Notes under the pieces: model-generated
What the model was told of the DNA's origin: nothing
Seen by the model: the letters and a program-made list of their open reading frames with translations, nothing else
Databases searched by the model: none
NCBI RefSeq assembly: GCF_018446385.1
Contig: NC_055991.1
Location: 96,331,712 to 96,395,711 of the forward strand
Source: Zingiber officinale
Taxonomy: Eukaryota > Streptophyta > Magnoliopsida > Zingiberales > Zingiberaceae
DNA length: 64,000 nt
Direction of reading: 5' to 3'
Position numbers and translations under genes: made by a program
Part shown: positions 9,661 through 45,667 of the stretch, piece by piece
Layout of the letters: each line of letters begins with the position of its first letter
How positions within the stretch are numbered: the stretch's first letter is position 1

Positions 9661-9960
9661 TATAAAGTGTAACAACTTTCTTAACTTCAATTGCTCAGTA
9701 TGCTTATTGTCGCATGAATTATTTTTCATTAAGTATGAATTGGATGTTCTTATTTGGTCTTTGTAGCTTAAGTTGGACGAGTGAGAGATGTTGGTAATGC
9801 GCATGCAGTTGCTATGCAACTGCACATGAACTTTAAAAAAAAACTGCAATGTGCAATTTGGAAAACTTCCCATATATCCCTTTATATAAACATCCAAGTA
9901 GAAAAGAAGAAATGGACTTGATGCTTTGCAAGAAAAGGACATTCTCTAGTGGAGGTATTT
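9661..9960. other. Non-coding stretch with a short perfect hairpin
   Basis: No gene supported. At about 9,803-9,824 the sequence 'atgcagttgctatgcaactg' can form a tight hairpin. The stretch ends at the left edge of the Ty3/gypsy element. Confidence 0.4.
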
Positions 9961-10389
9961 TGATACAGGAGAATCCGAAGATTTTTATTATTATTTTTAG
10001 TAATTTCTATCTTTTTAGTAATTTTAGGGTTTTTTATTTTAGGTATTTTTGGTAATTTATATTTTTTATTTTTAAATTTTGCATCCATTTAGGAATTTTA
10101 GGATTAGGAGTCTGTTAATAATTTTTTTCCTTTCTTTTAGAATTTCTTTTCATTTTTTATAAGTTAGAAATATTAATCTATATATTAAGATTTATTTTCT
10201 TTATTTCGATTTTAGGGTCTATAGTCTATATAAACATCTGTTTAGTTGTAAGAAGGGTAATCCTCGGTTATTAAATAATATTTCCTTTTTGGGGGGGGAA
10301 TCTTGACGACTACGGTTTCTTTTCTTATCTTCTCCTCAATTTTCTCTTTTTGTCTATTAGCAAGATAATCACTATCTTATCCGACATCA
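9961..10389 (+). repeat. 5' LTR of the Ty3/gypsy element
   Basis: 429 bp, TG...CA ends. It aligns along its whole length with 25,686-26,115: shared blocks include 'gaagatttttatta', 'gtaatttctatcttttt', 'tatataaacatct' and 'ttattaaataatat', then 'tcttatccgacatca' against 'cctatctgacgtca'. A G-tract ('ttggggggggaa', near 10,291) is absent from the partner. Confidence 0.88.
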
Positions 10390-11100
10390 ATTATTATCAA
10401 AGCTGATAAGTTTTGATTGAGGAAGTCAAGCGTTAGATCCAAGGAAAGGTCATCGTGGTCATGGTTGCGATCACAATAGGCAGGTTTTGATTAAGGAAGC
10501 CAAGAATTATGAAAGACGGTTGATGATTTACAAAGACAAGTCACAAATTTAACCCAATGTCTAGTGACGTGAAATCTTAAAGATTGTGAGGATCGACATG
10601 GAGACCTCGAATGTCTAATTGATCTATTCGAATTTTTTGATGCATCACAAACAGAGTATTTTTTTTTATTGGATTATCAAAGTGGAGCAGATATTCGACT
10701 ATAAGCAAATTCCAGATCAGATGAAGGTGAAGTTGATTGTCATCAAACTTAAGAGTCGAGCATTCATGTGGTCAGAACACTTGCAGCACTCATGAGGCAG
10801 ACAGAGCAAAACTAAAATCAAGGATTGGGAGAAGATGAAAGATCATTTTCTTCCTTTTAGGTACCCTCAAATTTCATTCCAAGGATGATTAATTTTTTCC
10901 ATGGAGGACGGTAGCTTCGATACCCAAGATGACCTTAATTGATTCAAAGATGATTTGGAAAAAGAAGTTGATGAGGATATTAACTGTCCTATGAAAGGCT
11001 CTATTTCAAGGTTGGACTTATTAGGTGCTAATTAAATAATTAGATGACAAAGTGAATGAGGATGTTCATTGTAAAACCAAATTGCTCGATGGTATACAAC
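10390..11100 (+). pseudogene. gag: Ty3/gypsy gag remnant
   Basis: After the primer site and a leader, 10,670-10,890 translates in one frame to the Retrotrans_gag core: 'DWIIKVEQIFDYKQIPDQMKVKLIVIKLKSRAFMW' (partly) and 'KIKDWEKMKDHFLPFRYPQ'. The first tryptophan of the usual 'WWE' pair is kept and the second is Ser. An in-frame TGA (about 10,791) and frame changes disrupt it. No zinc knuckle follows; after about 10,900 only weak acidic frames remain. Confidence 0.75.
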
Positions 11101-11469
11101 AAGACAATTATCCAAAAGAAGTTGATGAATCTAATACGCTATAAGTTGTGGAAGACCCCAAAGAAGAGGAGATTGACCCAGAAAAGTACCAAGATGAGGA
11201 AAAGTTTAATGAAGAGAACCATGATGAAGAGGATGGATTTTTGTTGTCTGAAGGAGGAATAGGACAGAATTCGAAAAATCTCGAACAAGATCCACACATC
11301 CCTAGATTCTTAGTTGGTGCAACTTCTCTTGGACTTTTTGTTGGTACTAGCAGCAACGAAGTCTTATTCTCCCAGCCGCGCCGCCTCTCCCGCTCTTGCC
11401 ACTTCCTCTGCCTATTTATTCTAGGGGGAAGGAGGGCCTCAACTCCTTAAGGATTTTTGAATGCAGCGT
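11101..11469 (+). other. Acidic and GC-rich stretch of unknown origin between gag and CPN60 fragment
   Basis: An open frame covers 11,148-11,450: first a Glu/Asp/Lys-rich part, then after about 11,365 an abrupt change to C-rich sequence ('cccagccgcgccgcctctcc'). The composition break suggests another piece of foreign sequence, perhaps a 5' UTR or first exon of a host gene captured with the CPN60 fragment. I do not recognise it and claim no function. Confidence 0.35.
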
Positions 11470-11864
11470 CAGGAAGGCTATTAAAGAGAGATGTGAGCAG
11501 ATACAACCTAATATTGAATTGAGCATATCAGATCATGATACAGAGAAATTGTAAGAGGTTGGAAAAACTTTCTGATGGAGTTACTATCTCCAAGATTGGA
11601 GGAGTTAGTGAAGCAGAAGTTGGTGAGAAAAAGGGCAGGGTCACATGCCCTTCTTTATACATCCAAGGAGTTGGATAAGTTGGAGACTGCTAACTTTGAT
11701 CAAAAGATTGGTGTCTAGATAACTCAGAATGATTTAAAGGCACCAGTTCATACAATTGCTTCCAATGTTGGAGTAGAGGGGGCAGTTGTCGTCGGCAAGC
11801 TCTTGGAACAAAATGACCTTAACCTTTGTTATGATGCAGCTAAAGGTGACTACGTGGACATGGT
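11470..11864 (+). pseudogene. Captured, intron-less fragment of mitochondrial chaperonin CPN60
   Basis: Translation matches the part of CPN60 (HSP60/GroEL family, mitochondrial protein folding) well before the C terminus: 'RKAIKERCEQIQPNIELS', then in another frame 'ISKIGGVSEAEVGEKKGRVT', then 'SKELDKLETANFDQKIGV', 'VHTIASNVGVEGAVVVGKLL' and 'YDAAKGDYVDMV'. Frames shift near 11,550-11,650, there are stops (TAA about 11,551, TAG at 11,716), and about 20 residues are missing after 'GRVT', where CPN60 has its Gly-rich 'VPGGGV' stretch. No intron interrupts about 390 bp although plant CPN60 genes are intron-rich, so the piece was copied from spliced mRNA. It lies between the gypsy gag and 3' LTR. 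The hAT transposon begins at its end. Confidence 0.9.
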
Positions 11865-11991
11865 CCTGGAAACAGTGTCGTAGTCAGGATTTTTAATTAG
11901 GGGGGGGGGGTGAATTCAATAAATTTAATAAAAAATTAATACAACACAGAAAATGTATAATAAAAGTTATATATGAACTTCATATGTTTTT

Positions 11992-13229
11992 ACAATATCA
12001 CTCTTAAAGATTTCATATTTTGAAAATACTGAATAATAGCTTCATTATCAATGGTATCAAACACATCTCGCTCAATATATGGTATCAAATAATCATTTAT
12101 CATATCATCTCTCAACCAATTTTGAAGTGAGCTTTTGATTATTTTTATTGCTAAAAACACTCTCTCTACAGTTGCAGTTCAACAGGTAATAGCAATGCTA
12201 ACTTCAAAAGTAAATATACCAAAGGATGCAGACGATATTTTTTCAATTGAACCATCCTTTTAGCAAGCTGGCTAATCCCCACGACCTCAGAGAACTGATT
12301 GCTACTCCGCATATCAAAAATTAAATTATCAAGTTGGGACTCAAGATGCATTAACTCCATCGGGGAAAAATCGGATGGATAAAACTGAGCAAACTGAAGT
12401 AATTTTCTCTTATCATAAGCATAGAATGAATTTGATAGATCAAGACAACTCATACACAACAACAACTCCGTGTTCACCTCGTTAAAGTGATTGTTCAACT
12501 CCTAAAGTTGCAAATCTATCACTTCGTAAAATGTTTCAACATGATAATAGTGAAGATTTGTCCTTCCTTCAATATTTCATCGTGATCTCCCATGAAAGAT
12601 GAACAAGTCTTCCATGTGCGGGGTGACTATCTCATACTTAACACAAAATAAAGAAACTTCATTCAGTAACAAATCCCAACCATCATCTCTCATAGTTTGC
12701 AGTTGATGTTTGCTTAATCTTACAAGAATCATGGCATTTACAATGTCTTGATCTTTTCTTTGTAAAACTTGTGATAAATCATTCGTGGCTCCCAAGATAT
12801 TTTTCATTAAGTGCATCTGAAATATAAATTAATATTTTCCAATCAATTCCAATAGATTATTTGCTTGTGCCCTTTGCTTGTGATCTTTTCCCTCCTCTTT
12901 AACAAATAAAAGGACATCAATAACTGAAGGATACAAGCATATCAAACTTAACAATGTATTATAATGTGAACCCCAACGTGTGCTCCCAGCTATATTTAAT
13001 GTCATCTCTTGATTCATACCTTGTCCAGTGAAAATATCACCATTACAAATTCCTTTAATAACTTTTCTAAATTATTTCTCACGAAGTATATCTCTTTGCT
13101 TGCATGACGCTTCAACAATATTGTTCAATTGTGCAACCACATCAAAAAATGTAGAAATTCTTATGTGATTTTAAGCAACAGCTACAAATGCAAGTTGAAG
13201 TTGATGAGTAAAACAATGAACATAATAAG
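11992..13229 (-). pseudogene. hAT transposase, C-terminal half
   Basis: Reading leftward from the copia edge the frames give 'HVHCFTHQLQLAFVAVA', 'LNNIVEASCKQRDILREK', 'GSTRWGSHYNTLLSLI' (about 12,940-12,990), 'DLSQVLQRKDQDIVNAMILV' and, at the end, the hATC dimerisation block 'LPV.TATVERVFLAIKIIK' (about 12,110-12,190), stopping near 11,992. Single in-frame stops split it near 13,140, 12,830, 12,577, 12,499 and 12,181. This is the ZMYM1-like DUF4371/hATC transposase group. Nearly the whole protein can be followed, so the gene decayed by point changes rather than large deletions. Confidence 0.88.
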
Positions 13230-15038
13230 TGTTAGTGAGAACCCTAGAGTCGATCATATGATGATTGTTGTATGGACTCGATGTATCATATTCCTATATT
13301 TATAAAGGTATTTCTTTATGGTTATTATACTTACTTGTATTGGTGTCAAATAACTAAGTATAATAGCGTCCTTGAGTAGAAGGTTCTTATCCATATCAAT
13401 CAATTGGTTGAATTGATAGTGAGATGATATAGATAACATTACTCTTAATCATTCCTAGTCAAGTATTAACATTCAGGAACAATGTTAATGCGATGAGACT
13501 AACATGTAGGTCAACTCGATGACTTGATCTTACAAGTCATGGATATGAGATATCAAGTTGGCACATGGGTATGCATTGGAGAATGTATACTGAATGACCC
13601 GCTATGAGAAAGTATCATGGATCATTATATGAGTGTCATATACTTTCTCATGTGACTATTAGTATGACTATCAGTCTTTAGACCTGAAGTCACCATGGTT
13701 CCCTACATAAGGAGTTGCATACTTTGGCTTCGTCAAACGTCACCCAAAATGGGTGGACTATAAAGGCGACTACTGGGTATGTAACAAATTATGCGGAGGG
13801 ATGTGAGTGATGTAGATGGGATTTATCCCTCCTATATGACAGGAGTGACATCATGATTCTTGATAGAGTGAGACCACTAAGTGCATGGCCATGCCCAAAT
13901 AAGTCAATATGAGATATTGAGCTCATTTGATTAGAGTGAGTCTACTTGGAGTTCAAGATATAGATTGATCAGAGAATGACAGAGTATATGCCTCAATTGA
14001 TCAATTTAGATGTCAAGGATAGAAGGGCATTGTCACATATTGTGAGAGTCACAATTAGTAGTCACAATGGTGATGTTGGATCTCAATATTCTTGTAACTT
14101 GGGTAGTAATGATGTGTTGCTAGATACCGCTCATTACTTATGTTTCTAAATGAGTTTAGGAGCATTGCCAACGTTACAAGAACCTATACGGTCACACATA
14201 AAGGGAAATTAGATGGAGATTAGGTTCATATGATGGACCAAGAGGATTAGGTTCATGTGATGAACCAAGTTAGATTAAGAGTAATTCAAATTAGACTAAT
14301 TGAGTTGAACTTAATTTGATTCATGTGTCGAATGAGTCTAGTTTAGACTATGATTCATTGAGTCAATTTAAACCAATGTATAGAGATTCATTAAATTAAA
14401 TTGATTTGAATCAAATGTTAGATTTTATCAACCATGGGAGGTAAGAGGTCAAGTTTGACTTGACTTGAGAGGGAAGATGAAGGGTCAAGTTTGACTTGAC
14501 CAAATGCCACCTCATTGTGACTTGGCATGGGTCGGCCAATGATGATGTTCCACATCATCAAGGCTACATCAATGTGTGCCACCTCATGAGGGAGACCAAG
14601 AGCCATGACTCTTGGTATTACACGGAGGTTTAAAACCTCTCAAGAGTGGTCGGCCACATTAGGTGAATTCAAGGGGTGTGAATTCAAGGCTTCATCTTCT
14701 TCGTCTTCCTCTCTTCTCTATTCTCCCTCTCCTCCATTGCCAAAACCACTTAAGGGTGCTAGCACACTCTAAGTGTTTCTCTCCACCTTTTGTCCGTGTG
14801 GATACGTGTAGAGGAGTGTACACTTGATACTCTACGAGATCCGGCAACCGTTTGGACGAGCGGGATAAGCAAAGGGCATCGTTACAAGGGTATACTTCTT
14901 TTTCATGTAGATCTAAGGTAGATCTAGTATAGATAAACATGTACATATACAATTTTTATTTATCTTCACACAGATCCGTGGCTAGCTTTGGGGTTTCCGC
15001 AACGCAAAAAGCGATTTTTGCGGCTCGAATTGCTAACA
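13230..15038 (+). repeat. 5' LTR of the nested copia element
   Basis: 1,809 bp, TGTTAGTGAG...TTGCTAACA with short inverted ends. Highly similar to the right LTR; visible differences are single bases and a roughly 14-bp tandem copy ('aaggggtgtgaattc', near 14,670) absent from the partner. Contains a 'ttgacttgac' repeat near 14,455-14,500. Small open frames inside are not genes. Confidence 0.95.
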
Positions 15039-15052
15039 GCGGTATCAGAGCC
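15039..15052 (+). other. Primer binding site (tRNA-iMet type) of the nested copia
   Basis: GCGGTATCAGAGCC lies directly after the LTR end and matches the plant tRNA-iMet primer site TGGTATCAGAGC except for its first base. Confidence 0.9.
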
Positions 15053-16457
15053 ACGTGCAAAGCATGTACATGTTTTGTATTTATTATTATGAAAAAGTTT
15101 CAGATCTGTAAGTTTCTATAATTTTTCTATTTTTATGGATTTTGTGAGTATTTTTCTCGTAGAAGCGAAGCAACGAGTGCTTGGACACTTGTAGGCTTCG
15201 AATACCGAGAAAAATCTTTCGAAACTGCAAGGTCTCGCCCAAACAAAAAATTATTTTTTGGGGATAGCGACTTTAGGCACTTTTAGATCATTTTGGGGCA
15301 TTCGGGATATTTATTTCGCAAGAAGGGGTGTTGCCCCTAACCCCGCAAGGGACATTGTCTCGCGATCGCGCCCGAAAATCGCTAAACGGGACCGCAGGGA
15401 GTTGTGACTCATAAAATTGATAAAACACTAGTAAAATTATAAAAATTTATGTAAAATACATAATTTAGAATTATGTATGATATTGTGATGATCATGGCCC
15501 AAAACCCCAATGTGATTGGTCAAAATTGTGTTGTAATTCATAATATGGCCTGCACGTCATTTTTGTATTGTGCGTGTTGTATATGATATGCGACCTGCGC
15601 GTCGTGCCTCTCTTATTATGTTCCTGTTGTAAATAGATTTTAGACTCGAATGTAACTCGAGTTTCATATTTGTAATGTACAAAATGAAGCGGTGGAAGGT
15701 CCACTCAAGAAGGAGTTACGAGCAGGATGCTGTCAACACATGGTGGTCAAAATAGGCGCTTGAAGAAGTCGTTATCCCTAGGTTGACCGTCCGATCTTCT
15801 CATTGGCTTGAGAAGATCATAGTAGGGACATGACCTCATCACAATTTAATTTGCTTGTGTGTATGTGATGCATGCTAATATAGGGTAATTAGTGCCTTAA
15901 TGCGTATATAATACACATTCATGATTAGATTAGATCTTAATCAAGTCAACTCGAAATGCCTACCAATTTTTGATACCCATCACTACCTCGATCATTTGTT
16001 ATTGTTGAATCTGCCAAAGCAGAGCAACGCATATTATCTTGTTAGGGTGCGGAGGGACAATCTTGGTCCTGCCTATCAAAGCTTGGGTTAGTACAAACTC
16101 AATTAGATTGAGTATAACTAGTTAACTCAATTGGATCGAGTAAAACTATAAGCATTTTCCAATGGTTGGATAAACAAGAGTTGCATAGAGATGTAATTGA
16201 TAATTAGTTATCTACCGATCATACTAAATCTTGGACGATTTAGCCAAAGCTAACTCAAGGCGTAGTATCATGTGGATCTTGTCCCGCGAGAATTATAGCT
16301 AATTGGTATGAATCTAGTAGTGTGGTTTGACCATATCCATGACTTGATTCTACAAAAGCCCTATAATTCAGTGGGAGCATCATTTAGTTAAAGGCCTAAT
16401 TAAATGATCAGTGGAATATGATATTTACTTTCTCCTTTATTTATGTTGTAGATTGTC
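15053..16457 (+). other. Untranslated leader of the nested copia element
   Basis: About 1.4 kb between primer site and gag ATG with no supported coding sequence. It presumably carries the packaging and dimerisation signals, but nothing specific can be pointed to. Confidence 0.6.
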
Positions 16458-17320
16458 ATGTCGACAAACACGAACACTTTCTCCTTACGTTCTGTCCTTG
16501 ACAAGGACAAGCTCAATGGAGCTAATTTCCTGGACTGGTACAGGAATCTGAGAATCATTCTCACACAAGAAAGAAAACTATACGTCCTAGAGCAGCCCAT
16601 TCCGGAGGCACCTCCTGCCACTGCCACGCGAGCTGACCAAGATGCTTATAAGAAGCATCAAGATGATGCATTAGATGTGTCATGTCTCATGCTCGCAACC
16701 TTGAACTCTGAGCTTTAGAAGCAACACGAGTTGATGACTGCTTATGATATGGTTGAATATCTTCATCAACTATATCAAGGACAAGCAAGGCACGAGAGAT
16801 TCGAGATCTCTAAGGCATTGTTTCAGTGCAAGATGCAAGATGAGACTCCCGTAGGTCCATACGTACTCAAGATGATTGGGTACATAGAGAACCTACAGAG
16901 GTTGGGATTCCCACTTGGCCAAGAACTAGCCACTGACTTGATCTTGCAATCCTTGCCAGAAAGTTACAGTCAATTTGTCATGAATTACAACATGAACGAA
17001 ATTGATAAACCACTGCCTGAGCTGCTAAGCATGTTGCAAATTGCTGAGCTCAACCTTAAGAAGGTAAAGCCCAACTCCATTTTGATGGTGCAAAAGCATA
17101 AAGGCAAGAGCAAGCCTAAAAGCAAGGGAAAGTCCCAAGCCAAGGGCAAAGGCAAGGTAATGAAACCTAAAGGAGGGGTTGCCAAGGATGCTACCTGCTT
17201 CCACTGCGGTCAGATCGAGCACTGGAAGAGGAACTGCAAAGGATACCTGGAAGATCTTAAGAAGAAGAGAAATGAGATTTCTACTTCAGGTATATATGTT
17301 ATAGAAGTCAATCTCTCTAT
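16458..17320 (+). pseudogene. gag: gag of the nested copia element
   Basis: Begins ATG-Ser-Thr-Asn with 'LDKDKLNGANFLDWYRNLRI' and continues through a UBN2-type capsid region ('YQGQARHERFEISKALFQCK', 'LPESYSQFVMNYNMNEI'), a Lys/Gly/Ser-rich basic linker (about 17,100-17,170) and a zinc knuckle C-X2-C-X4-H-X4-C in 'CFHCGQIEHWKRNC' (about 17,199-17,240). Gag coats the RNA and forms the virus-like particle. One in-frame TAG at 16,716-16,718, in a context where CAG is expected ('EL.KQ'), splits it. The same frame then runs on into protease, as in single-ORF copia elements. Confidence 0.92.
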
Positions 17321-20300
17321 TTCTTCATCATGGGTATTAGATACCGGATGTGCTTCTTATATTTGTACTAATGTACAGGCGCTGAGAAATAGCAGGGCAT
17401 TGACGAAGGGCGAGGTGGACCTACGAGTAGGCAATGGAGCACGGGTTGCTGCTGTTGCTGTAGGAACTTACTTTCTATCTCTGCCCTCTGGACTTGTACT
17501 AGAATTAGATGAATGTTGTTATGTGCCTGCTCTCACAAAGAACATCATTTCAGTTTCTTGTTTAGACAAAAAAGGTTTTTCATTTATAATAAAGAACAAA
17601 TGTTGTCCATTTATTTAAATGATATGTTCTATTGTAGTGCACCTCTGATGAACAGACTCTACATTCTAGACTTGGAGAACCCCATCTATAACATAAGTAT
17701 CAAAAGGTTCAAGTCAAATGAAATGAACCGAACCTATCTCTGGCATTGTCGCTTAGGTCATATAAATGAGAATCGTTTATCCCAACTCCATAAAGATGGT
17801 TTGCTGGACTCATTTGATTTTGAATCATATGAGACATGCGAGTCATGCCTACTGGGCAAGATGACTAAGACTCCATTTAGTGGACACAGCGAAAGAGCAA
17901 CTGACTTGTTAGAACTTATACATAGTGATGTATGTGGCCCCTTCAATGTCACTGCCAGAGGTGGTTATAGGTACTTCATTACATTTACTGATGACTTCAG
18001 TAGATATGGTTATGCGTATATGATGACACATAAGTCACAATCCTTTGAAAAGTTCAAAGAATTCAAGAATGAAGTACAAAATTAGCTAGGCAAGAGTATT
18101 AAAATACTTCGATCAGATCGAGGTGGTGAATACCTTAGCCATGAGTTTTGTGACTATCTAGCTGAGTGTGGGATTCTATCCCAACTCACTCCTCCTGGAA
18201 CACCACAGTGGAATGGTGTATCCGAAAGGAGGAATCGTACCCTATTAGATATAGTGCAATCTATGATGAGTCACACAGATCTTCCTATATCCTTTTGGGG
18301 ATATGCTCTAGACACAGCAGCCTTCACACTTAACCGTGTTCCATCCAAAGCTGTGATAAAGACACTATATAGGATATGGACTGGGAGAGATGCCCAGATG
18401 TCTTTTATGAGGATTTGGGGTTGTGAGGCTTACGTTCGACGTCAAGTCTCGGACAAACTTGGACCCCAAATCCGATAAGTGCTATTTTATAGGATATCCC
18501 AAGGAAATGAAGGGATATTACTTCTACATTCCCAGTCACCACAAAGTGTTTATGGCTAAGACTGGGGTATTTCTAGAAAAGGACTTTGTTTCTAGAAAAA
18601 CTAGTGGGAGTACGTTCGATCTTGAAGAAGTTCAAGATATGGACTATAACACTGAAGCCTTGATGGAAGTTGAACTAGAACCGTAAAATGTTGTGGATGA
18701 TGAGATTGTTGCACAAGGAGTTGAGCAACAATAACCTGTTCAAGTAGACCTACCTCTTCGCAGGTCTGACAGGGTACGTCGTCAGCCTGAGAGATACTTA
18801 TTTCTCTTGTCTGACCATGACGACATTATGCTCGTTGAGAATGAGCCTACCTCCTATCAAGAAGCTGTAATGAGACCAGATTCTGAGAAATGGCTAGAGG
18901 TCATGAGATCCGAGATAGAATCCATGTACACCAACCAAGTATGGACTTTGGTTGATCCACCTGAAGGCGTCAAACCCATTGGTTGTAAGTGGGTCTTTAA
19001 GAGAAAGACTGATATGGATGGACTTATTACCTATAAGGGTCATTTGGTAGCAAAAGGTTTCAAGCAAATTCATGGTATTGACTATGATGAAATTTTTTCT
19101 CCAGTAGCGATGTTTAAGTCCATTCGGATTATGCTTGCTATTACAGCATACCACGATTATGAGATCTAGTAGATGGATGTCAAAACCGCATTTCTGAATG
19201 GAAACTTGCTCGAGGATGTGTACATGACACAACCTGAGGGTTTTGTAGATCCACTGCATACTGGTAGAATATACAAGCTGCATAAGTCCATTTATGGACT
19301 AAAGCAAGCTTCTTGGAGCTGAAATCTTTGATTCGATGATGCGATCAAACAGTTTGGTTTCATCAAGAATGAAGATAAACCCTATGTCTACAAGAAGGTT
19401 GTTGGGAACATAGTTGTCTTCCTTGTATTGTATGTGGATGACATACTACTCATTGGAAATGGCATCCCTTTGTTGCAGTCTATAAAGACTTGGCTGGGGA
19501 ATTATTTCTCAATGAAGGACTTAGGTGAAGCAGCCTGTATTCTAGACATAAAGATCTATAGAGATAGATCTAAGAGATTGCTTGGCCTAAGTCAAAGTAC
19601 ATATATTGACACGGTATTACTACGGTTTGCCATGCAGAATTCCAAGAAAGGATTTCTACCGATGTCACATGGTGTGAGTCTTTCAAAGACTCAAAGTCCC
19701 TCTTCTAGAGAGGAGAGAGACCGCATGGATAAGATCCCTTATGCTTCAGCCATAGGATCTATCATATACGCCATGTTATGTACTCGTCCTGATGTATCGT
19801 ATGCTTTGAGCATGACGAGCAGATACTAGTCAGATACAGGTGAACGTCACTGGATAGCGGTCAAGAATATTCTTAAGTACTTGAGAAGGACTAAAGAATA
19901 TTTCTTGATTTTTGGAGGCGATGGCGATCTAGCTGTAAAGGGTTATAGTGATGCCAGCTTCCAAACTGACCAGGATGATTATAAATCGCAGTCTGGGTTT
20001 GTGTTTTGCTTGAATGGTGGTGTTGTGAGCTGGAAGAGTTCGAATCAGGACACAATTGCTTATTCTACAACAGAGGCCGAGTATATTGCTGCATCCGAAG
20101 CAACAAAGGAGGCAGTCTGGATCCGCAAGTTCATTATTGAGCTTGGGGTGGTTCCTAGCATAGCCGATCCTATAGAGCTCTATTGTGACAACAATGGAGC
20201 AATTGCGCAGGCTAAGGAACCTCGCTCACACCAGCGGACCAAACACATACTACGGCGCTTCCATCTCATTCGAGAGATCATCGATAGAGGGGATGTGAAA

Positions 20301-20426
20301 ATTTGCAGAGTACCCACAGAGGCGAACGTCGCTGATCCCTTGTCCAAGGCTTTGGCACAGAGAAAGCATGATGGTCACACTAGGTCATTTGACCTTAGAG
20401 CTTACACTAGTTGGCACAAGTGCTAG
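17321..20426 (+). pseudogene. pol: pol of the nested copia element: PR-INT-RT-RH with many stops
   Basis: Protease 'WVLDTGCASYICT' (about 17,330); integrase zinc site 'WHCRLGHINENRL'...'CESCLLGK', core 'RSDRGGEYLS' (about 18,115) and 'NGVSERRNRTLLD' (about 18,215); RT '[11 protein letters not shown]' (about 19,170) and YVDD (about 19,430-19,441); RNase H 'YSDASFQTDQDDYKSQSG', 'STTEAEYIAASEA' and 'YCDNNGAIAQ'. It ends at the TAG at 20,424-20,426. Damage: frameshifts near 17,600 and 18,460; stops at 18,083 (TAG), 18,684 and 18,732 (TAA), 19,167 and 19,170 (TAG TAG), 19,320 and 19,329 (TGA), and 19,827 (TAG). In each context the expected codon is CAG, CAA, TGG or possibly CGA, one transition away. 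Catalytic motifs remain. Confidence 0.94.
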
Positions 20427-20434
20427 TAGGAGAT

Positions 20435-22229
20435 TATTAGTGAGAGCCCTAGAGTCGATCATGTGATGATTGTTGTATGGACTCGATGTATCATATTCCT
20501 ATATTTATAAAGATATTTCTTTATGGTTATTATACTTACTTGTATTGGTGCCAAATAACTAAGTATAATAGCGTCCTTGAGTAGAAGGCTCTTATCTATA
20601 TCAATCGATTGATTCAATTGATAGTGAGATGATATAGATAACACTACTCTTAATCATTCCTAGTCAAGTATTAACATTCAGGGACAATGTTAATGCGATG
20701 AGACTAGCATGTAGGTCAACTCAATGACTTGATCATACAAGTCATGGATATGAGATATCAAGTTGACACATGGGTATGCATTGGAGAATGTATACTGAAT
20801 GACCCGCTATGAGAAAGTATCATGGATCATTATATGAGTGTCATATACTTTCTCATGTGACTATTAGTATGACTATCAGTCCTTGGACCTGAAGTCACCA
20901 TGGTTACCTACATAAGGAGTTGCATACTTTGGCTTCGTCAAACGTCACCTGTAAATGGGTGGACTATAAAGGCGACTATTGGGTATGTAACAAATTATGC
21001 GGAGGGATGTGAGTGATGTAGATGGGATTTATCCCTCCTATATGACAGGAGTGACATCATGATTCTTGATAGAGTGAGACCACTAAGTGCATGGCCATGC
21101 CCAAATAAGTCAATATGAGATATTGAGCTCATTTGATTAGAGTGAGTCTACTTGGAATTCAAGATATAGATTGATCAGAGGATGACACAGTCTATGCCTC
21201 AATTGATCAATTTAGATGTCAAGGATAGAAGAGCATTGTCACATATTGTGAGAGTCATAATTAGTAGTCACAATGGCGATGTTGGATCTCAACATTCTTG
21301 TAACTTGGGTAGTAATGATGTGTTGCTAGATACCGCTCATTATTTATGTTTCTAAATGGGTTTAGGAGCATTGCCAACGTTACAAGAACTTATAGGGTCA
21401 CACACAAAGGGCAATTAGATGGAGATTAGGTTCATATGATGGACCAAGAGGATTAGGTTCATGTGATGAACCAAGTTAGATTAAGAGTAATCCAAATTAG
21501 ACTAATTGAGTTGGACTTAATTTGATTCATGTGTCGAATGAGTCTAGTTTAGACTATGATTCATTGAGTCAATTTAAACCAATGTATAGAGATTCATTAA
21601 ATTAAATTGATTTGAATCAAATGTTAGATTTGATCAACCATGGGAGATAAGAGGTCAAGTTTGACTTGACTTGAGAGGGAAGATTAAGGGTCAAGTTTGA
21701 CTTGACCAAATGTCACCTCATTGTAACTTGGCATGGACCGGCCAATGATGATGTTCCACATCATCAAGGCTACATCAATGTGTGTCACCTCATGAGGGAG
21801 ACCAAGAGCCATGACTCTTGGTATTACATGGAGGTTTAAAACCTCTCAAGAGTGGCCGACCACATTAAGTGAATTCAAGGCTTCATCTTCTTCGTCTTCC
21901 TCTCTTCTCTATTCTCCCTCTCCTCCATTGCCGAAACCACTTAAGGGTGCTAGCACACTCTAAGTGGTTCTCTCCACCTTTTGTCTGTGTGGATACGTGT
22001 AGAGGAGTGTACTCTTGACACTCTACGAGATCCGGCAACCGTTTGGACGAGCGGGATAAGCAAAGGGCATCGCTACAAGGGTATACTTCTTTTTCATGTA
22101 GATCTAAGGTAGATCTAGTGTAGACAAACATGTACATGTATAATTTTTATTTATCTTCGCACGGATCCATGTCTAGCTTTGGGGTTTCCGCAACGCAAAA
22201 AGCGGTTTTTGCGGCTCAAATTGCTAACG
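20435..22229 (+). repeat. 3' LTR of the nested copia element
   Basis: 1,795 bp, aligned throughout with 13,230-15,038. Its ends are mutated (TATTAG... and ...GCTAACG instead of TG...CA), but the flanking ATAAG duplication fixes the boundary. Confidence 0.94.
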
Positions 22230-23158
22230 ATAAGCAAATGGATTCTCCATCATAATTAAGCTTTTTAAGCCATTGGATTCTCCTCTCATATTGCTAGCTC
22301 CATCGTATCCTTGCCCCCACAAATTAGATATAGATAATCCATGTTGGTACAATAAAGAATCAATAGCAGTTTTAAGTGATAAGGCAGTAGTGTTGCTTAC
22401 ATGTACAATGCCTAGAAAGCATTCAACAATATTTCTCCTTTCATCTACAAATCATAAAGCAACTGTCATTTGTTCTTTAACAGATATATCACGAGCCTCA
22501 TCAACCAATATAGTAAATAATTCATCACTGAGATCTCCAAGAACAGAATTAGTGGTTAAATAAGCAATGGATCTGATAATATCATTCTGAATATCAAGCG
22601 ATGTCAATTTGAGATTTGAGGGAGCATTGTCTAGTGCAACTCTATTGATATCCTCATTATGGTCAGCAAGAAATCTTAACAGTTCAAGAAAATTACCATG
22701 ATTGAGTGAGTTTGTTGATTCATCATGACCACGAAATGCTAATCCTTGACACATAAGAAATCTTATGCAATCAATTGATGCTGTCAAACGAACACGATAA
22801 TCTATAGCTACTTGATTAGACTGATTGATCAAACAAGTTTCAATATGTTGTTTTTGATTCATTAAATCATAAGCCGTCATCATACACCTGTTGTGAATGC
22901 TGCTCTGATTTCCAACATGTTCATTAAAATTTTCTTTCTTTCTCCAATTTTTAAATCCCTCAGTAACAAAAGAATCACCACCACTTTGGCCACCATGATC
23001 CGCTTTGAATAAATAGTAATAAAGACAGAAAGATGCATCTTTTGCAATGTTATATTCTAGCCAATTAGGATGAAGACTAAACCATATAGCTCGAAATCTT
23101 CGTTTCTCTTTTGGACAAGAACGCCAAGGAAATTCATGATTCTTAGGCTGAAAAGGAC
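22230..23158 (-). pseudogene. hAT transposase, N-terminal half (DUF4371 region)
   Basis: Reading leftward: 'GPFQPKNHEFPWR', 'NWLEYNIAKDASF', 'FKADHGGQSGGDSFVTEGF', then an open stretch 22,452-22,883 with 'HIETCLINQSNQVAIDYRVR' and 'DEARDISVKEQMTVALR', ending in 'GQGYDGASNMRGE' (about 22,260-22,300), the hAT signature. This is the DUF4371/transposase region of ZMYM1-like hAT proteins. The zinc-finger-bearing N terminus expected further right is not found; an LTR-like insertion begins at about 23,160. The other half of the gene lies at 11,992-13,229, across the copia insertion. Confidence 0.88.
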
Positions 23159-23159
23159 C

Positions 23160-24406
23160 TTTTTACTTTCATTTCAGAAAACTTAACGAGTAAACATAGC
23201 GGAATATTAACACAAATACACAGAAAAGACACTAAGGATTTTTTGCTTAGTTCGGAGCCTGGGGCGACTGCTACTCCAAGGCCCGCACATAAGAGTGCTT
23301 TCAATGGGTAAACACTGTAGCTTTGGAAAGATTACAATAAGTATAATAAGTACAATAAATGCAATAATAAATTATACCGACAACAATGTAATCTCAAACT
23401 TAGAGCTTCTGGTTGTCGAGGTCAAGTTCTGGCTTTGTCACAACGTCTCGTTGGCAGTGTACAGCTGAAAGATCACTTAGAATTTGTTGTATCCAGCTTC
23501 TGCTCGAGACAACTTTATAAAGCCCATTGAGGGCGCCTCCAACACCCTGGAGGGTGCTCTCAACCTCGCCGATTTCGCAGCGTGAATGAGATCTGAAGAA
23601 GTCGCCTCTTATCCGCCTAAGGGCGCCCTCAACCTCCATGAGGGCACCCTCGCGCCAAGGTCCAGGGTGCCCTTGCGCCAGTGTCCAGGGAGCCCTCAAG
23701 CTCCATGAGGGCGCCCTCGCGCCTTGCAGCGAGGTTGCTTCTCCAGGTTCACTTCCTGCAAAATATGTTAGTCCAACATACCCTACAAAACAAAGTTAGG
23801 ATAATAGAGATATGTAAAATCAAAGTATTTGACAGTCATCGGATTGTCCGATTCTGACTTCGAATTCCCATCTAGAAATCCTAGGTCGAACCGACACCTA
23901 CTGTTCCCTCATCGGGGAACGCATCCTTACCTACTCCTCTCAAGAGAGTTTACCTATTGTCAGTTGATCCTCCAGACCAATTGGACTTTTGCTAAGTGCT
24001 CGAGACTCCAGGACTTTCCGCTGGACGTTCGCTCCACTACCCGCCAGTCTTTCACCTGGTTCACGACACCAGGACTTTCCACCTAGAGTCCTCAACTCTA
24101 GGACTTTTGCCCGAAGCCCTCGACCCGCCAAGACTTTTCGCCTAGAGTTACCACCCCCTAAGACCTAGGGTTACAGCCCCCTAGGGTTTTCCCTTTGCCT
24201 AATCGCAACTAGGACTTTTCCTTACCTAGGGTTACCACCCCCTAGGGTTTTCCACCTGCCTAACTACAGCTAGGACTTTTGCCTAAGTACACTTAGGATT
24301 TTCCTGCAATCTCATTTAACTTGTTAGATAATAAAACAACTTAACTTTGGACCCTTTGACATAATCAAAACACAGGTTTGACTGTCGGATGCTTCCCGCA
24401 CCAACA
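23160..24406 (-). repeat. LTR-like fragment related to 6,835-8,097
   Basis: Shares with 6,835-8,097 the order: 'actgctactccaaggcccgcac' block, then GC-rich units ('gagggcgcc', about 23,523-23,730), then 'tcgaaccgacacctactgttccctc' and a C/T-rich repeat ('aggacttttgcc', about 23,975-24,300), and the end 'ccgcaccaaca'. On the minus strand it begins TGTTGGTGCGGG. The inner end is not the expected one, so it is truncated or a diverged subfamily. No target duplication was found. Confidence 0.65.
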
Positions 24407-25228
24407 GTTATTTCACCTAATTTATCATTAATATAATATTTTAAAAACGTAATTATCTAATTAATGATTATTTGTTTTCAACAATTTATATTCAAAAATA
24501 AATAATAAACAAAATTGATAGAAAGAAATCAAAAACATGAATATATATGCAAAATTAACACTATATATTTTTTCAATACTTAAATCTGTAATCAAAAGAT
24601 ATCGAGTAAGAAAATTTTACCTCAATCAAAAGACATTTGTTGTGGAGCGTCGGTAGCGTTGTTAGCAAACGATAGCAGCGATAGCGGTGAAGCGACGATG
24701 GTAGCGTTAGCAGCAAATGATAACAGCGTTGCGGCGTTGGCAACGGCGTGTAGTAACAGACCGACAACGACGTGGATGGCAACGGCAATGTGCGACGGAG
24801 GATTTTGAGGGCAAAATTAAGATTAGGAAAAAATAAGATGAGAATTAGGGGAGGAAGAAGAACATGGGTAGAGGAAAAAGGAAAGGGTAACAGTGGAGGA
24901 AGAAGAAAATAAAAGAGGAAAAAAATAAGGTTCGACGGGAAGCAGTTTCACCGATAGGGAACAAAAACAATGAAAAAGGAAAAAGGAAAAACTTCGACGG
25001 AGAGAAAACATGAGAGAGAAAGAGAGAAAAAAGTTTGGACAAATGAGAGAGAGAGAAAAAATAAAAAACGGTGCTAGGTTTTAATTAGAGTTTTTCATAA
25101 AAGTCTAAATAGTTTTAGATTTATAAATAAATATTTTTTTATTTTTAACCATATTAATTTTTTTCCTCCAAATCTGAGAGGGGGTGATCGCACTACCCCC
25201 ACCCCCTCCCAAAGTAGCTATGCCCCTG
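24407..25228 (-). other. 5' non-coding end of the hAT transposon
   Basis: Contains a 'gcgttggc/agcgatagcg' triplet-rich part (about 24,640-24,790) and a long purine-rich tract (about 24,830-25,060, 'gagagagagaaaaaa'). On the minus strand these are a CT-rich leader followed by GC-rich repeats, typical of plant 5' UTRs. No coding sequence supported. Confidence 0.55.
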
Positions 25229-25590
25229 CCTGGAAACAGAGGCACAACAACTACTGGTGGGGAAATCCTTGTTACTGTGGGAAGAGCTGCGGTCCAAGGT
25301 TAGTGATTAGGCCTCTAAGCACAACATCAAGTTCGCTCCTTTAGAGAAGGTAATCGACAAGAGGTTTAAGAAGCACTACCACCCAACTTGGTCGGAGGCA
25401 TTCATGTTAGATCCATTATACTTGGTAAAGGACATCAGTAGAAAAAATCTTTCCCCCATTTAAGTCTCTAAGCTCTCACTAAGAGAAGGGTGTGGACAAG
25501 CTAATCACCAGACTAGTCTCGCACATCGAAGGCCACATTGCTCTCATGAAGCGGGATGAAAGTGAGGTGGAAGTCTAGTAATTACTAGTA
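25229..25590 (+). pseudogene. Captured fragment of a second plant gene (DUF659/hAT-derived, At1g62870-like)
   Basis: Translation gives 'AQQLLVGKSLLLWEELRSKV', 'FAPLEKVIDKRFKKHYHPTW', 'EAFMLDPLYLVKD', then after a frame change 'EKGVDKLITRLVSHIEGHIA'. From memory this resembles the conserved C-terminal region of uncharacterised plant nuclear proteins such as Arabidopsis At1g62870/At1g12380 (BED/DUF659, ribonuclease-H-like, hAT-derived). That identification needs a search. It starts in the same reading frame in which the CPN60 fragment ends, once the hAT transposon and one target copy are ignored. A TAG at about 25,299 and a frameshift near 25,460 break it. Confidence 0.65.
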
Positions 25591-25685
25591 AATTTTATCG
25601 ATTTGGTATTAGATGATTTCCTTCTAATTACCACCAAAAATTACTTTAAACTCGAGGAAGAGTTCTTTCAACCAAGGGTGAATAA

Positions 25686-26115
25686 TGTAGGAGGATTTGA
25701 AGATTTTTATTATTTTCTTAGTAATTTCTATCTTTTTGGTAATTTCAGTTTTTTTTATATTTTGGATATTTTGATAATTTCTATCTTTTGTATTTTTTTT
25801 TATTTTGCTTCCATTTAAAAATTTTAGAATTGGAGTCTATTAATATTTTTTTCTTTTAAATTCTTTTTTCTTTCTTTACAAGTTAGAAATTATAGTTTAT
25901 ATATTAGGATTTCTTTTCTTTATTTGAGTCTTAGATTCTAAAGTTTATATAAACATCTATTTAACTGTAAGTGGGATAAGTGGGATAATCTTTAGTTATT
26001 AAATAATATATTTTTTTAGAAGAAATCTTGAGGATAACGATTTCTCTTCTTGTCTTTTCCTCAATACCCATCTTCTTGTCAACCTACAAAATAATTGCTA
26101 TCCTATCTGACGTCA
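25686..26115 (+). repeat. 3' LTR of the Ty3/gypsy element
   Basis: 430 bp, TGTAGGAGGATTTGAAG...CTGACGTCA; pairs with 9,961-10,389. Preceded by a Glu-rich frame ('gaggaagagttctttcaacc'), the usual end of gypsy internal sequence. Confidence 0.88.
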
Positions 26116-26815
26116 GATTTGCTTCGTGAATACTGTGAAGTGATGCTCATTCATAATTGTTCTTCCAACGATAAGCACAAGTATCAACAAGACACTAAAG
26201 AGGAGGCAAAAATATGAAAGGTGTAAGCTTTTATTTTTTTCAAGTTGTTCATGCATATAAGTTCAATATACTATACATCATTTGTGGTTGCTTTATACAA
26301 AAATAGCACCACTAAACATCATTGTTTAGGAGTTGTTTTATATAAAATAACATCACCTTGTAGTTATATGCATCATTTTAGTGTTGTTTAGTATAAGATA
26401 GTTGTATTATGTATAAAGTAATTTCAAAATGATATTGTTTTGTACAAAACTATTACAGAGTGATGTTGCTTTGTACAAAATAGCTTCACCATTGGTGTTG
26501 CTTTCTACAAAGCAACTCTAAGGGTTATCAAGTTGTCGGTTCATATTGTTGTGGTTAGACCACTTACGAACAAAGATGCATTTAGATATGAAATAAAAGG
26601 GTGGTTTTATAAAACTTGAAAGAGGGACATCATTTTGATGATATAAATAAAAAATACATTCTTTTAATTGTTGTCAATCTAAAATTCACTTGTTAGATCC
26701 TTTCATTTTCATAAATTTTTGACATCCAAAGAATTTAAGAGGTATGATTGATAATAATTAAATAAAAATTTTTTAAATATCCTTAATTATTTATATCATA
26801 AAAACGACCTTTTAC
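26116..26815. other. Non-coding stretch right of the gypsy element
   Basis: No gene supported. Contains repeated 'gttgctttgtacaaaatag'-like units at about 26,280-26,520, suggesting a decayed repeat. Confidence 0.4.
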
Positions 26816-27620: not shown

Positions 27621-28010
27621 AATCATGTAATATATCAAAGTTCATCAACAAATCATAATATCTAAACAACAAGTCATCTCACATGTCATTAAAAATAATA
27701 AGTCATCAACATGTCATCAAACAACAAGCCTCCTTTTTTGCCTCATGAGACACTTCCTTCTCCTTCTTTAATCCTTCTTCTCTTCCTAAGTCAAATTACA
27801 AACAAACATTAAGTAATGTTTATAATAAAAAAAATGTGTCTAACATATCAATGACATATGTGTCTAACATTTATAACAAATAAAACTTAATTCATTATCA
27901 TAGCATATCAAGGGTATATATGTGTTTTGTGAGTTGTAACATATACATACATCCTTAATTTTCAAAATATGTCATTTATCCTTAATTTTATGAAATATAT
28001 ATGATGTGTG

Positions 28011-28613
28011 CAAATCCACAAGTGCACGGAAATGTCGTCAAGTAATAAAAGATCAAATCCACAAGGACAGTGAATCAGGTACTAGTCAGAATGCCCATGT
28101 AGGTTATCTAGAGAATTAATAGTGGTTGAAGCCATGAACAAGCTAGGGAGAATGAGAAAGAGAGTTGAGAGTGGGATGCGAACAAGAGAGAATTAAGGGG
28201 GAGGCAGAAAAGAGAGCCAAGCCAGAGAAGTAAGTGAAGGATGAAGTGATTCTAGGATTTTGGTTTCTCTCAAATAATTATAAACACTTAATCTATGTTT
28301 GGTTTCTTATCGTCAATGAGTATTTATGTAGATAGATTATTCTATGATATCTGATGTGAACTTTGGGTACTACAATGACGTACCAACCCTAATCATCGTC
28401 TACTTTTGGAAGTATCGCAACTAGTGATCGAAACCTAGGGGGAACCCTATCACAAGATCCCTCAACTTTTAATTAACCACTTTTTCTACTGTGTGACAAT
28501 GAATTAGGTTTGATCCATTAAACTCTATGACGGCCTAGGATTCCTTACGGCATACTGGGTTGCACTTACGTATCCAACTCTCTGTATCTTGGTTTTTTAT
28601 GGATCAAGGTTGG
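28011..28613 (-). repeat. Old LTR-type repeat, left part (continues at 52,089)
   Basis: Contains 'ccacaagtgcacgg...gtcaagtaataaaa...ccacaaggacagtg', a sequence seen in the LTR or nearby region of many plant gypsy elements. It is cut by the GTTGG-flanked solo LTR and resumes at 52,089 ('gttcttcttttggtttatcc'). Confidence 0.5.
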
Positions 28614-30371: not shown

Positions 30372-33043
30372 TGTTGGTTGCTACTCGGAAATCCTAGAGG
30401 TTCCACTGTACAAAAATTTTGTACAAAGGTCTGAACCTTTTCCTAGCTACCATGTGTTCTTTTAAATTAAATTTTGGATCGCCTGCGGAACTTAACACGT
30501 TTGATCCAAAACGTAATCTATTTGTTCTTTTAGGTTTTGACTTGGATCTCCTGCGGAACTTAACACGTTCGACCCAAACCACCTTAAGTTATTAATTACA
30601 TTAAATATTAATTTCCATAATTGGTTCCCAGTACTGACGTGGCGAGGCACATGGCCTTCTTGGATATGGGAGCAACCACCACCGACTAGACAAAACCTTT
30701 TATAGAAATCTAATATTTAATTTCCTAAAATAACTTTAGGTTAACCGAAAAGAACAATCAAATCACAAGGAAAAATAAAACAAAAGAACACAACTTCGAA
30801 AAACATATTCGAAATACTAGAATCGTAAGCCTCTTGTATTTGGTATTATTTCCAAAAATAACTAGTATGATGCGGAAAGAAAAAATACTAGTTATACCTT
30901 TTAGAAAGACCTCTTGATCTTCTACCGTATTCCTCTTCTAACCTCGGGCGTTGTGTGGGCAACGATCTTCCGAGATGAGAATCCACCAAAGCACCTTCTT
31001 CTCCTTTCTTCAAGTTTCGGCCAAGCACAAAGCTTCCAAAAGATGAAGATCTTTTCCACCAACCAAGCTCCAAGGGATACAAGCTTTTTCTCCTTCTTCT
31101 TCTTCTTCTCAAGTAGTATCCGGCCACCACAAGAGCTCCAAGCAAATAGAGAAGGTTCGGCCACCACCAAGAGGAAGAGAGAAGAAAGGTTGGCGACACA
31201 ACACCAAGGAAAAGAGGGAGAGAAATAATAGAGGTTGTTCACCATGAAGCCTTCTCTACCCCTTCTTTTATAATCCTTGGTCTTGGCAAATAAGAAAATT
31301 TAATTAAAACTTCCTTAATTCTTTTGCCATGAAAAGGAAAATTTATTTAATTAAAACAATTTTCCTTTTCTCAATTTACATGGCCGCCACCATCAAGCTA
31401 TAAACAAGGAGAGTTTTAATTAATTAAAACTTCCTAATTTGTCTCCAGAAATTTATAAAATTTCTCCAATAATTTAATCCCTTCATGATTGGTTTATAAA
31501 AAGGAAATTTAATAAATTAAAATCTTTCTTTTAAACATGTGGATAAAAATAAAGTTATCTCTAAAAATTAAAATCTCTTTTGATCTACAAATAAGGAAAG
31601 ATATCAAATCTTTTCTCAATCTTTTGTAGAAACTAATAAAAGAGAATTATTAATTTTTAAACTTTTCTTTTAAATCATGAACATGGTTAAAAAGGAAAGT
31701 TTTCTTAAAATTTAAAATCCTCCTTTAATCAACAAATAAGGAAAGATTTCAAATTTTAAACTCTCTTTTAAACATGTAGATGATTTACAAATAAGGAAAG
31801 TTTTTACCAAAAACTAAAACCATCCTTTTAAACTACAAATAAGGAAAGAGATTAATCTCTTCTCTTAATCTTTTGTAGAAAACTATAAAAGGAAATTTTT
31901 AATTTTTAAACTTTCTTTAAAATCATGATATCCACATAAGAAATAATTCTAATAAAAATCCTTTTAATATTCTAGTGGCCGGCCACCTAAGCTTGGGACC
32001 CAAGCTTTGGCCGGCCACCTACATGACTCATCCACTTGGTCTTGGCCGGCCCTAGCTTGGGTTCCAAGCTAGCTTGGCCGGCCCCATTGGATGGGTAAGA
32101 AGGTGGGTATGCGGTGGGTATAAATCTCTATATACTAGAGGCTACGATAGGGACCGAGAGGAGGAATTGGTTTTGGTCTCCCGATGAAATTAAGCATCCC
32201 GTGTTCGCCCCGAACACACAACTTATTTTCATCAATAATAATTCATTCCACTAAAGAACTATTATTGAACTACCGCACCAATCCCAAATTACATTTTGGG
32301 CTCCTTCTTATTATGAGCATGTTAGTCTCCCTGTGTTTAAGATATCGAATGTCCACTAATTAAGTGAGTTACTGACAACTCATTTAATTAATATCTAGGT
32401 CCAAGAGTAGTACCACTCAACCTTATCGTCATGTCGGACTAAGTCCACCTGCAGGGTTTAACATGACAATCCTTATGAGCTCCTCTTGGGGACATTATCA
32501 ACCTAGTATCTCTAGGACACAGTTTCCTTCTATAATCAACAACACACACTATAAGTGATACCATTTCTCAACTTATCGGGTTTATTGATTCATCGAACTA
32601 AATCTCACCCATTGATAAATTAAAGAAATAAATATCAAACATATGTGCTTGTTATTATATTAGGATTAAGAGCACACACTTCCATAATAACTGAGGTCTT
32701 TATTTCTTTATAAAGTCAGTATAAAAGAAACGACCTCTAATGGTCCTACTCAATACACTCTAAGTGTACTAGTGTAATTATATAGTTAAGATAAACTAAT
32801 ACCTAATTACACTACGACCTTCCAATGGTTTGTTCCTTTCCATTATGGTCGTGAGCTACTATTTATAATTTATAAGGTACTGATAACATGATCCTCTGTG
32901 TGTGACACCACACACCATGTTATCTACAATATAAATTAATTGAACAACTACATTTATCATAAATGTAGATATTTGACCAATGTGATTCTTATTTCTAGAT
33001 AAATGTTTATACAAAAGCTAGGCTTTTAGTATACACTCTAACA
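30372..33043 (-). repeat. 3' LTR of the gutted copia-type element
   Basis: 2,672 bp, on the plus strand TGTTGGTTGC...CTCTAACA. Pairs over its full length with 37,574-40,237. Contains perfect palindromes 'aagcttgggacccaagctt' and several 'ggccggcc' sites (31,975-32,085). Most differences from the partner are 1-3 bp indels clustered at 30,950-31,260. Small frames inside have no recognisable product. Confidence 0.94.
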
Positions 33044-37558: not shown

Positions 37559-37571
37559 AGCTCTGATACCA
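37559..37571 (-). other. Primer binding site of the gutted element
   Basis: Minus strand TGGTATCAGAGCT lies two bases inside the LTR edge and matches the plant tRNA-iMet primer site exactly. Confidence 0.92.
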
Positions 37572-37573
37572 AT

Positions 37574-45620: not shown

Positions 45621-45667
45621 GAGCTAGTTTTAGAGCCTCCCAGCCCTAAACCCTAACGTCTTCCTGG

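Follow-up and report, generated by a model that had tools for sequence, protein, structure and literature searches.

Capture of host genes by long terminal repeat (LTR) retroelements is already known from the maize element Bs1, which a review presents as an LTR retroelement bearing segments of three host genes (PMC13317346). LTR-captured genes number 672 in rice, 1,343 in sorghum and 424 in maize according to the figures given in one survey (PMC3726574). Double template jumps by LINEs are described as yielding tripartite chimeric pseudogenes (PMC2104539), and template-switching complexes of LTR elements are reported from the Triticeae (PMC1950507). Such captures are as a rule encountered only in their final form. 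The window analyzed here, a stretch of 64,000 nucleotides from the C6 haplotype of ginger (Zingiber officinale), contains an old, decayed retrotransposon insertion in which a fragment of one host gene, in spliced form, lies within a fragment of a second.

Structure of the window element and its later insertions

The element is bounded by a 5′ LTR (positions 9961 to 10389; features are on the forward strand unless otherwise indicated) and a 3′ LTR (25686 to 26115). The repeats are 76% identical with gaps (9967, where the alignment starts, to 10389 against 25689 to 26115; E=1e-81), and their Kimura two-parameter (K2P) distance of 0.26 corresponds to approximately 0.13 per lineage since integration. 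Paired LTRs with a short target-site duplication (TSD) mark both this element and a relative on C4 as LTR retrotransposons: the flanks of the window element, TATTT (9956 to 9960) and GATTT (26116 to 26120), are alike at four of five bases, and those of the C4 relative read CTTGT on both sides. The C4 relative also harbors the sequence TGGTATCAGAGC after its 5′ LTR, which we take to be the initiator-Met primer binding site and which is degenerate in the window.

Downstream of the 5′ LTR lies a degenerate gag region (10390 to 11345), collinear with that of the C4 copy and of weak gag likeness; a genome search with this region returned 908 candidate places, of which 40 were scored. In the relative L046, the Retrotrans_gag match (E=0.0032) is below the Pfam cutoff. 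The Ty3/gypsy label of the family is a provisional one, drawn only from this weak gag likeness. Directly before the 3′ LTR, a family-specific tail (25587 to 25685) is present in 20 of the 22 loci L046 to L067.

The element is interrupted by a later insertion, a hAT transposon on the reverse strand (11873 to 25228), whose ends and 8-bp TSD, CCTGGAAA (11865 to 11872 and 25229 to 25236), are found in both haplotypes; its DUF4371 open reading frame (reverse strand, 22452 to 23162) matches Pfam DUF4371 at E=4.1e-45. Within the hAT, a Copia-type element with long direct repeats (13230 to 22229) is present in the C6 haplotype only, being skipped in the C5 alignment, and contains an integrase-like piece below Pfam cutoffs. 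A Pack-type DNA transposon was rejected as the carrier, since the host pieces fall beyond the ends of the hAT and not between terminal inverted repeats.

Captured CPN60 and DUF659-like fragments

The host pieces of the element are arranged in the order DUF659, CPN60, DUF659. The CPN60 piece (11474 to 11864) comprises six exons with a 59-nt internal deletion and is an exon-exact match to an intron-bearing parent on C17 (L031), the peptide of which, when scanned, matched Pfam Cpn60_TCP1 (E=2e-22). All four testable parental introns are exactly absent, bearing out the intron-less CPN60 fragment of the preliminary description, and the fifth junction falls in the 59-nt deletion. Changes in the piece are spread evenly over the codon positions (15, 11, and 11 of approximately 130 each), which indicates neutral decay; selection on the piece was rejected accordingly. 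On both sides the piece adjoins DUF659 sequence through joints with microhomology, where no poly(A) occurs, and a LINE-type processed pseudogene, lacking as it would here a poly(A) end and a directly flanking TSD, was rejected.

The CPN60 piece had been described as running straight into a DUF659-type fragment, which is correct for the 3′ joint but overlooked a second such stub upstream (11348 to 11473; 76% identity to the C12 parent, L040:405-536; K2P 0.28). The 3′ stub (25229 to approximately 25564; 84% to L040:1500-1832; K2P 0.20) begins with the 8 bp that form the right TSD copy of the hAT. Both derive from LOC121995993, a DUF7963/DUF659-like gene of C12/C11, the 3′ fragment from a single exon and hence from a stretch with no intron whose loss could show splicing; of the two unlinked spliced transcripts previously invoked, the separate parents (C17 and C12) and the spliced CPN60 stand. 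A genome search with the 3′ piece gave DUF659 matches only on C6, C5, C4, C3, C12, C11, C1, C2, C22, and C21 among the 40 scored of 95 candidates. A Pfam scan of the parental stretch, from which the N terminus is absent, returned no DUF659 match at E<=0.01 and only a sub-cutoff match to DNAPKcs_CC3. Homologues among the 120 listed of 822 carry PF25908 under names such as DUF7963; PF04937 (DUF659) is also present in one, and the name “DUF659 - like 2” occurs once. None of the three findings that would have contradicted the preliminary description arose: the second segment has a host-gene match, the CPN60 piece is free of parental introns, and the parents are not neighbors.

A separate insertion at C4/C3 carries the DUF659 capture without CPN60. 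The C4 and window elements have their outer breakpoints and tail in common, and their flanks are unmatched. Across the stretch that CPN60 replaced, the C12 parent and the C4 copy are collinear (83 to 87%) except for one missing 69-bp repeat unit, and at 12 of 323 sites a change from the parent is common to C6, C5, and C4. These comparisons show that a single 1.43-kb DUF7963/DUF659-like stretch lay between gag and tail in an ancestor and that its middle gave way to spliced CPN60 sequence in the window lineage. Because the DUF659-only state has the same outer breakpoints, CPN60 must have entered an element already holding DUF659, and the two captures were separate and ordered.

At the 5′ joint, the motif AGGCT (11475 to 11479) is present in the C12 gene, the C4 copy, and the CPN60 parent, and the window element has one base more than the C12 gene immediately before it. 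The 3′ joint is marked by GACATGGT (11857 to 11864), whose codon phase is identical in the two parents, each reading DMV. The simulated chance of such identities (5 and 8 nt) at a random joint is 0.0045 and 0.00013, respectively; because both parents share them, they fit a pair of template switches in which synthesis moved onto an mRNA and then returned. The reading frame was said to continue across the 3′ joint, and the parental frames do agree there; elsewhere, however, stop codons and frameshifts disrupt the two segments, such that the window copy has no long open frame.

Cargo of related elements

In the seven relatives with both gag and tail in view (L046, L049, L050, L058, L059, L066, and L067), these are separated by 0.57 to 1.44 kb, which leaves no room for pol. 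The lack of pol, described earlier for the window element, is not peculiar to that copy. An HSP70 stub was detected (E<=1e-3) just before the tail in 14 of 20 tail loci examined, representing 11 independent places if paired contigs are alleles. The 3′ edges of the stubs are nearly common (parent position 345 to 357, with 357 in 8 of the 14), and the 5′ edges are stepped (170 to 331). No significant HSP70 match was obtained at the stub position of the window and C4 copies; in an alignment of these with 19 relatives, positions 25570 to 25586 of the window occupy the KVQQLL position and are the presumed last remnant of the family HSP70 capture.

Further cargo includes a WD40 capture in L058, which is spliced at two exon junctions and recurs at unlinked loci, a piece of a TPR gene, exon-like blocks, from two genes, that precede HSP70 in L065 and recur on C14/C13 and C1, and a PPR-ABC stretch in L064 (ABC_tran above the Pfam cutoff, PPR below). 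As in a Bs1-like transducing element, fragments of unlinked host genes are joined in the window element (parents on C17 and C12), and spliced host cDNA lies between the LTRs (four exact junctions in CPN60, two in WD40 of L058). Pfam scans of relatives' open reading frames gave no match for 7 of 10 in one set and 4 of 8 in another. In L048, L053, L054, and L057, the sequence preceding the tail looks LINE- or Copia-like on visual inspection, and host cargo is accordingly absent from some relatives. The different host pieces found nevertheless suggest that the family has repeatedly captured host mRNAs. Two-gene chimeras, earlier called seldom described, are not isolated, given the different host pieces of these relatives and the three host genes attributed to Bs1.

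A C19/C20 match was rejected as HSP90, as its translation does not read as such; a short adjoining stretch resembles HSP90 (E=8e-5; Pfam below cutoff). Among roughly a dozen cargo stretches observed, three derive from chaperones (HSP70, CPN60 and, tentatively, HSP90), a pattern that might mirror cellular conditions during the element's activity. Heat activation, which such cargo suggested, was rejected: in 12 LTRs, no three-unit heat-shock element was found (0.07 expected), and two-unit elements were at the shuffled level (3 versus 2.6).

Mode of capture and comparison with known systems

We propose, with a probability of roughly 0.7, that a gag-only, Ty3/gypsy-like family repeatedly captured host mRNA and that CPN60 was acquired through an out-and-back template switch into a DUF659-bearing element. 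Such an apparently gag-only family would have to propagate with proteins supplied from elsewhere. Reverse transcriptase, copying element RNA in the 3′-to-5′ direction, would have departed from the DUF659 stretch at GACATGGT, proceeded along a CPN60 mRNA packaged alongside, within which it skipped 59 nt, and rejoined the element RNA at AGGCT. Subsequently, the hAT inserted beside the joint, and the Copia-type element into the hAT on one haplotype. At other times, the same jump may have overwritten earlier captures, whose edges would persist as layers, HSP70 being the oldest, followed by others, DUF659, and finally CPN60. We assign even odds to the proposition that this family has long acted as an exon-shuffling machine, habitually packaging host mRNA and repeatedly overwriting its cargo by out-and-back switching so that the cargo forms a stratified record of capture.

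The preliminary description also envisaged a template-switch chimera, which the joint microhomology fits; a single reverse-transcription event that captured both fragments is, however, very improbable. The presence of both in one element and the agreement in codon phase where they meet at the 3′ joint would suit such an event, but DUF659 lies on both sides of CPN60, and the C4/C3 copy has DUF659 and no CPN60 between identical outer breakpoints, which contradicts a single event unless recombination restored DUF659 to that copy. CPN60 is, furthermore, less diverged than the DUF659 flanks (37/391 versus 88/453; context-stratified odds ratio 0.57, p=0.013), the stratified age difference from the 3′ flank alone being not significant (p=0.12). 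Capture at the level of genomic DNA, for instance by the hAT, which sits at the joint, or by recombination between neighboring genes, is scarcely credible given host pieces outside the hAT ends, precisely missing CPN60 introns, and parents on different chromosomes (C17 and C12).

It is also conceivable, if unlikely, that CPN60 cDNA served as filler in the repair of a double-strand break in the DUF659-bearing element after its integration, the ends being joined by microhomology, with which the observed joints are also compatible. The CPN60 insert was found at the C5/C6 alleles of one locus only, with no unlinked copy to indicate later transposition of this particular chimera. Its K2P distance to the parent (0.10, with changes on the element's own branch at 24 to 29 of 345 sites), being slightly under the per-lineage LTR estimate of 0.13, leans toward entry after integration; this gap is small and affected by base composition, and the dating is not decisive. 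Transversion counts (9/391 for CPN60, 30/412 over two LTR lineages) leave the ages unseparated, and the other cDNA cargo of relatives went on to transpose, which argues that capture in this family is usually tied to retrotransposition.

With the states before (DUF659 only) and after (CPN60 inside) and both parents in one genome, the step can be followed at single-base resolution. Should the pattern hold across the family, it would provide a natural series for studying the frequency with which reverse transcriptase departs from its template and comes back to it, the selection of mRNAs for packaging, and the origin of multi-gene fusions in plants. Within the literature searched, in the form in which those sources present their systems, layered overwriting appears to be new. 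The LTR-captured genes of rice, sorghum, and maize likewise lie within LTR elements, many of them decaying, but the survey as consulted describes no layered capture series in one family (PMC3726574). The double jumps of LINEs similarly join three transcripts through two switches in one reverse transcription; they involve, however, LINE machinery and three different transcripts, with no return to the starting template in the account given (PMC2104539). In the Triticeae complexes, too, replication of LTR elements switched abnormally from one co-packaged RNA to another, but there, as reported, two retroelements and not host mRNAs were fused (PMC1950507). Bs1, as described, resembles the ginger element in being an LTR element with segments of several host genes (PMC13317346); relative to that description, the ginger element differs in having one host piece inside another and an earlier state surviving as a separate copy, and its relatives in sharing their oldest capture with later captures alongside.

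Captured host genes in the window element

The element at window 9961-26115 carries a piece of a chaperonin gene (CPN60) embedded in a second host gene. Window 11474-11864 aligns to a gene on contig C17 as exon-sized blocks, and alignment to the joined parental exons shows that it spans six exons, with the parental introns precisely missing at four junctions and the fifth junction lying inside a 59-nt deletion common to both alleles. The preliminary description of this fragment as intron-less is thus borne out, and the missing introns show that its capture included a cDNA step. The parental peptide matches Cpn60_TCP1 (Pfam). Its best hits among solved structures are a chain labelled glomalin, 60-kDa chaperonins and mitochondrial Hsp60; Chaperonin 60B1 ranks far below these. 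Among 32 genome matches, no further intronless CPN60 copy was found besides the C5 and C6 alleles.

On the 3′ side, window 25229-25564 corresponds to a single exon of a DUF7963/DUF659-like gene on C12/C11 (84% match), whose protein shows 100% identity to Zingiber officinale LOC121995993. The same gene is matched at window 11348-11473 (76%), approximately 1 kb more 5′ in the gene, and CPN60 therefore occupies the place of that gene's middle. The passage from CPN60 into a second host gene, as originally proposed, has its host match downstream, but the upstream piece of the same gene had been overlooked.

The search covered a 3.09-Gb assembly of 211 contigs (window, G000:C6:96331712-96395711), in which contigs with neighbouring numbers act as haplotype pairs; a 3.1 Gb haplotype-resolved ginger assembly has been reported (PMC8342452). 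The duplication flanking the hAT element (window 11873-25228, minus strand) is identical on both haplotypes, so that entry of the hAT beside the joint predates haplotype separation; a Copia-type element inside it is present in C6 only. Further along, approximately 21 kb of C6 (window 30071-51006) is missing at the matching C5 place, where the alignment jumps from 30070 to 51007, and C5 possesses approximately 4.2 kb (L033:4233-8445) absent from C6, opposite window 28003-28095. This part of the window also harbors a CACTA-type tnp2 transposase ORF (48723-50174, minus strand; Transposase_21, E=2.6e-85), arrays with 41-bp spacing (45626-46016, which also has 36-bp spacing, and 53478-53687), direct repeats interleaved with inverted ones, clustered at 53704-55793 (approximately 60-210 nt), and direct repeats at 30372-39379 with 7.2 kb between them and pieces 88-100% identical, which are probably the LTRs of another element.

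Order and timing of the captures

The search for other copies revealed a separate insertion of the same family at C4:24685665, with a presumed allele on C3, which has flanks unlike those of the window and its own duplication, CTTGT. Its order is gag, the C12 gene (positions 403-1832 of the parental locus L040, 83-87%), the same tail and the same LTR, with CPN60 absent; this copy shows that DUF659 was captured before CPN60. The two insertions have identical outer breakpoints, and C6, C5 and C4 have changes in common at 12 of 323 sites, from which it follows that both most likely descend from a single capture of the C12 gene that preceded their separation. The parent has a 69-bp direct repeat that is one unit shorter in the C4 copy; at L040:1422-1507 the 17-nt direct repeat GGACATGGTCCTGGAAA recurs 69 bp apart, and the unit was lost as if copying had slipped.

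CPN60 differs from its parent at 37 of 391 sites (K2P 0.10), spread evenly across codon positions, versus 88 of 453 in the flanks, a gap of which a large share reflects composition, since C>T and G>A predominate among the changes. The context-stratified odds ratio was 0.57 against both flanks (p=0.013) and 0.67 against the 3′ flank alone (p=0.12). On the element branch, 24 of 345 CPN60 sites changed, with 5 additional ambiguous, and LTR pair K2P values were 0.26 (C6), 0.28 (C5) and 0.27 (C4, minus approximately 160 bases of the 5′ LTR). These divergence data are consistent with CPN60 as the later of the two captures, and lean slightly towards its entry after integration.

Cargo among family members

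The gag region search returned 908 candidate genome places, 40 of which were scored; 20 of the 22 loci L046-L067 carry the family tail, L061 and L062 being host paralogs. In the seven loci with both gag and tail in the fetched piece, the gap between them is 0.57-1.44 kb, which is insufficient for pol. The absence of pol noted previously accordingly fits, but is not peculiar to the window copy.

The intervening sequence varies among copies. Directly before the tail, 14 of 20 loci match HSP70 (reference gene L072; E<=1e-3), representing 11 independent places if paired contigs are alleles. The 3′ edges of this stub fall at parent positions 345-357 (exactly 357 in 8 of 14) and the 5′ edges at positions 170 to 331; L049 and L050 likewise end at 357, at E=0.02. 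No significant match to L072 was found in L051, L054, L057, L060 or C4, and the best in the window (E=0.006) is placed elsewhere than the stub. The KVQQLL position beside the tail is kept in the window and C4 (alignment of 21 sequences, L056 excluded). We interpret this pattern as a single founding capture of HSP70 whose 5′ side was cut back by later captures.

Other loci carry further cargo. L046 has a C17/C18-parent stretch, a C19/C20-parent stretch, a short HSP90-like stretch and HSP70. L058 has a leading stretch without a gene name, a WD40 gene and the HSP70 stub; both introns of the three-exon WD40 parent (C2/C1) are spliced out. Its leading stretch plus WD40 recurs at near full length on C18/C17, C5/C6, C3/C4, a second C6/C5 pair and another C3 place, and over positions 214-962 on C22 (81-97% identity, self excluded), indicating transposition after capture. 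L065 comprises blocks that match a gene on C8/C7 and C10/C9, a stretch matching a TPR gene (C13/C14; match interrupted by approximately 70 bp, Pfam scores below cutoff) and HSP70, with no parental match for query positions 184-321; this fusion is found again along its length on C14/C13 (82%) and C1 (74%). In L064 (2056-2448, minus strand), PPR-like and ABC-transporter pieces adjoin in one frame upstream of the tail, and related stretches occur on C9, C10 and C15-C18. Against a general host-cargo pattern count the LINE- or Copia-like stretches, judged by eye, before the tail in L048, L053, L054 and L057, and the relatives' ORFs without a Pfam match (7 of 10 in one scanned set, 4 of 8 in another).

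Joints and mechanism

At the 5′ joint, AGGCT occurs in both sources, the element having one additional base immediately before it, and at the 3′ joint both contain GACATGGT; the simulated chance of overlaps this long at random joints is 0.0045 and 0.00013, respectively. The parental frames coincide at the 3′ joint (DMV), which accounts for the continuous frame recognized from the sequence at the outset.

Reverse transcription starts copying element RNA at its 3′ end. We infer template switches in which the reverse transcriptase would depart the element RNA inside an older capture, copy a host mRNA and rejoin the element RNA further 5′, leaving layered captures; such out-and-back copying would produce exactly the layers observed. 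A post-integration DNA-repair patch using CPN60 cDNA as filler, which the slight lean of the divergence data towards late entry would suit, is considered unlikely beside template switching.

Double template jumps have been described for LINEs (PMC2104539). Among titles and abstract openings of the open-licence literature, nested serial captures within one LTR family were not found. Maize Bs1 is reported to contain segments from three host genes (PMC13317346) and, like the ginger element, thus combines segments of several host genes in one LTR element.
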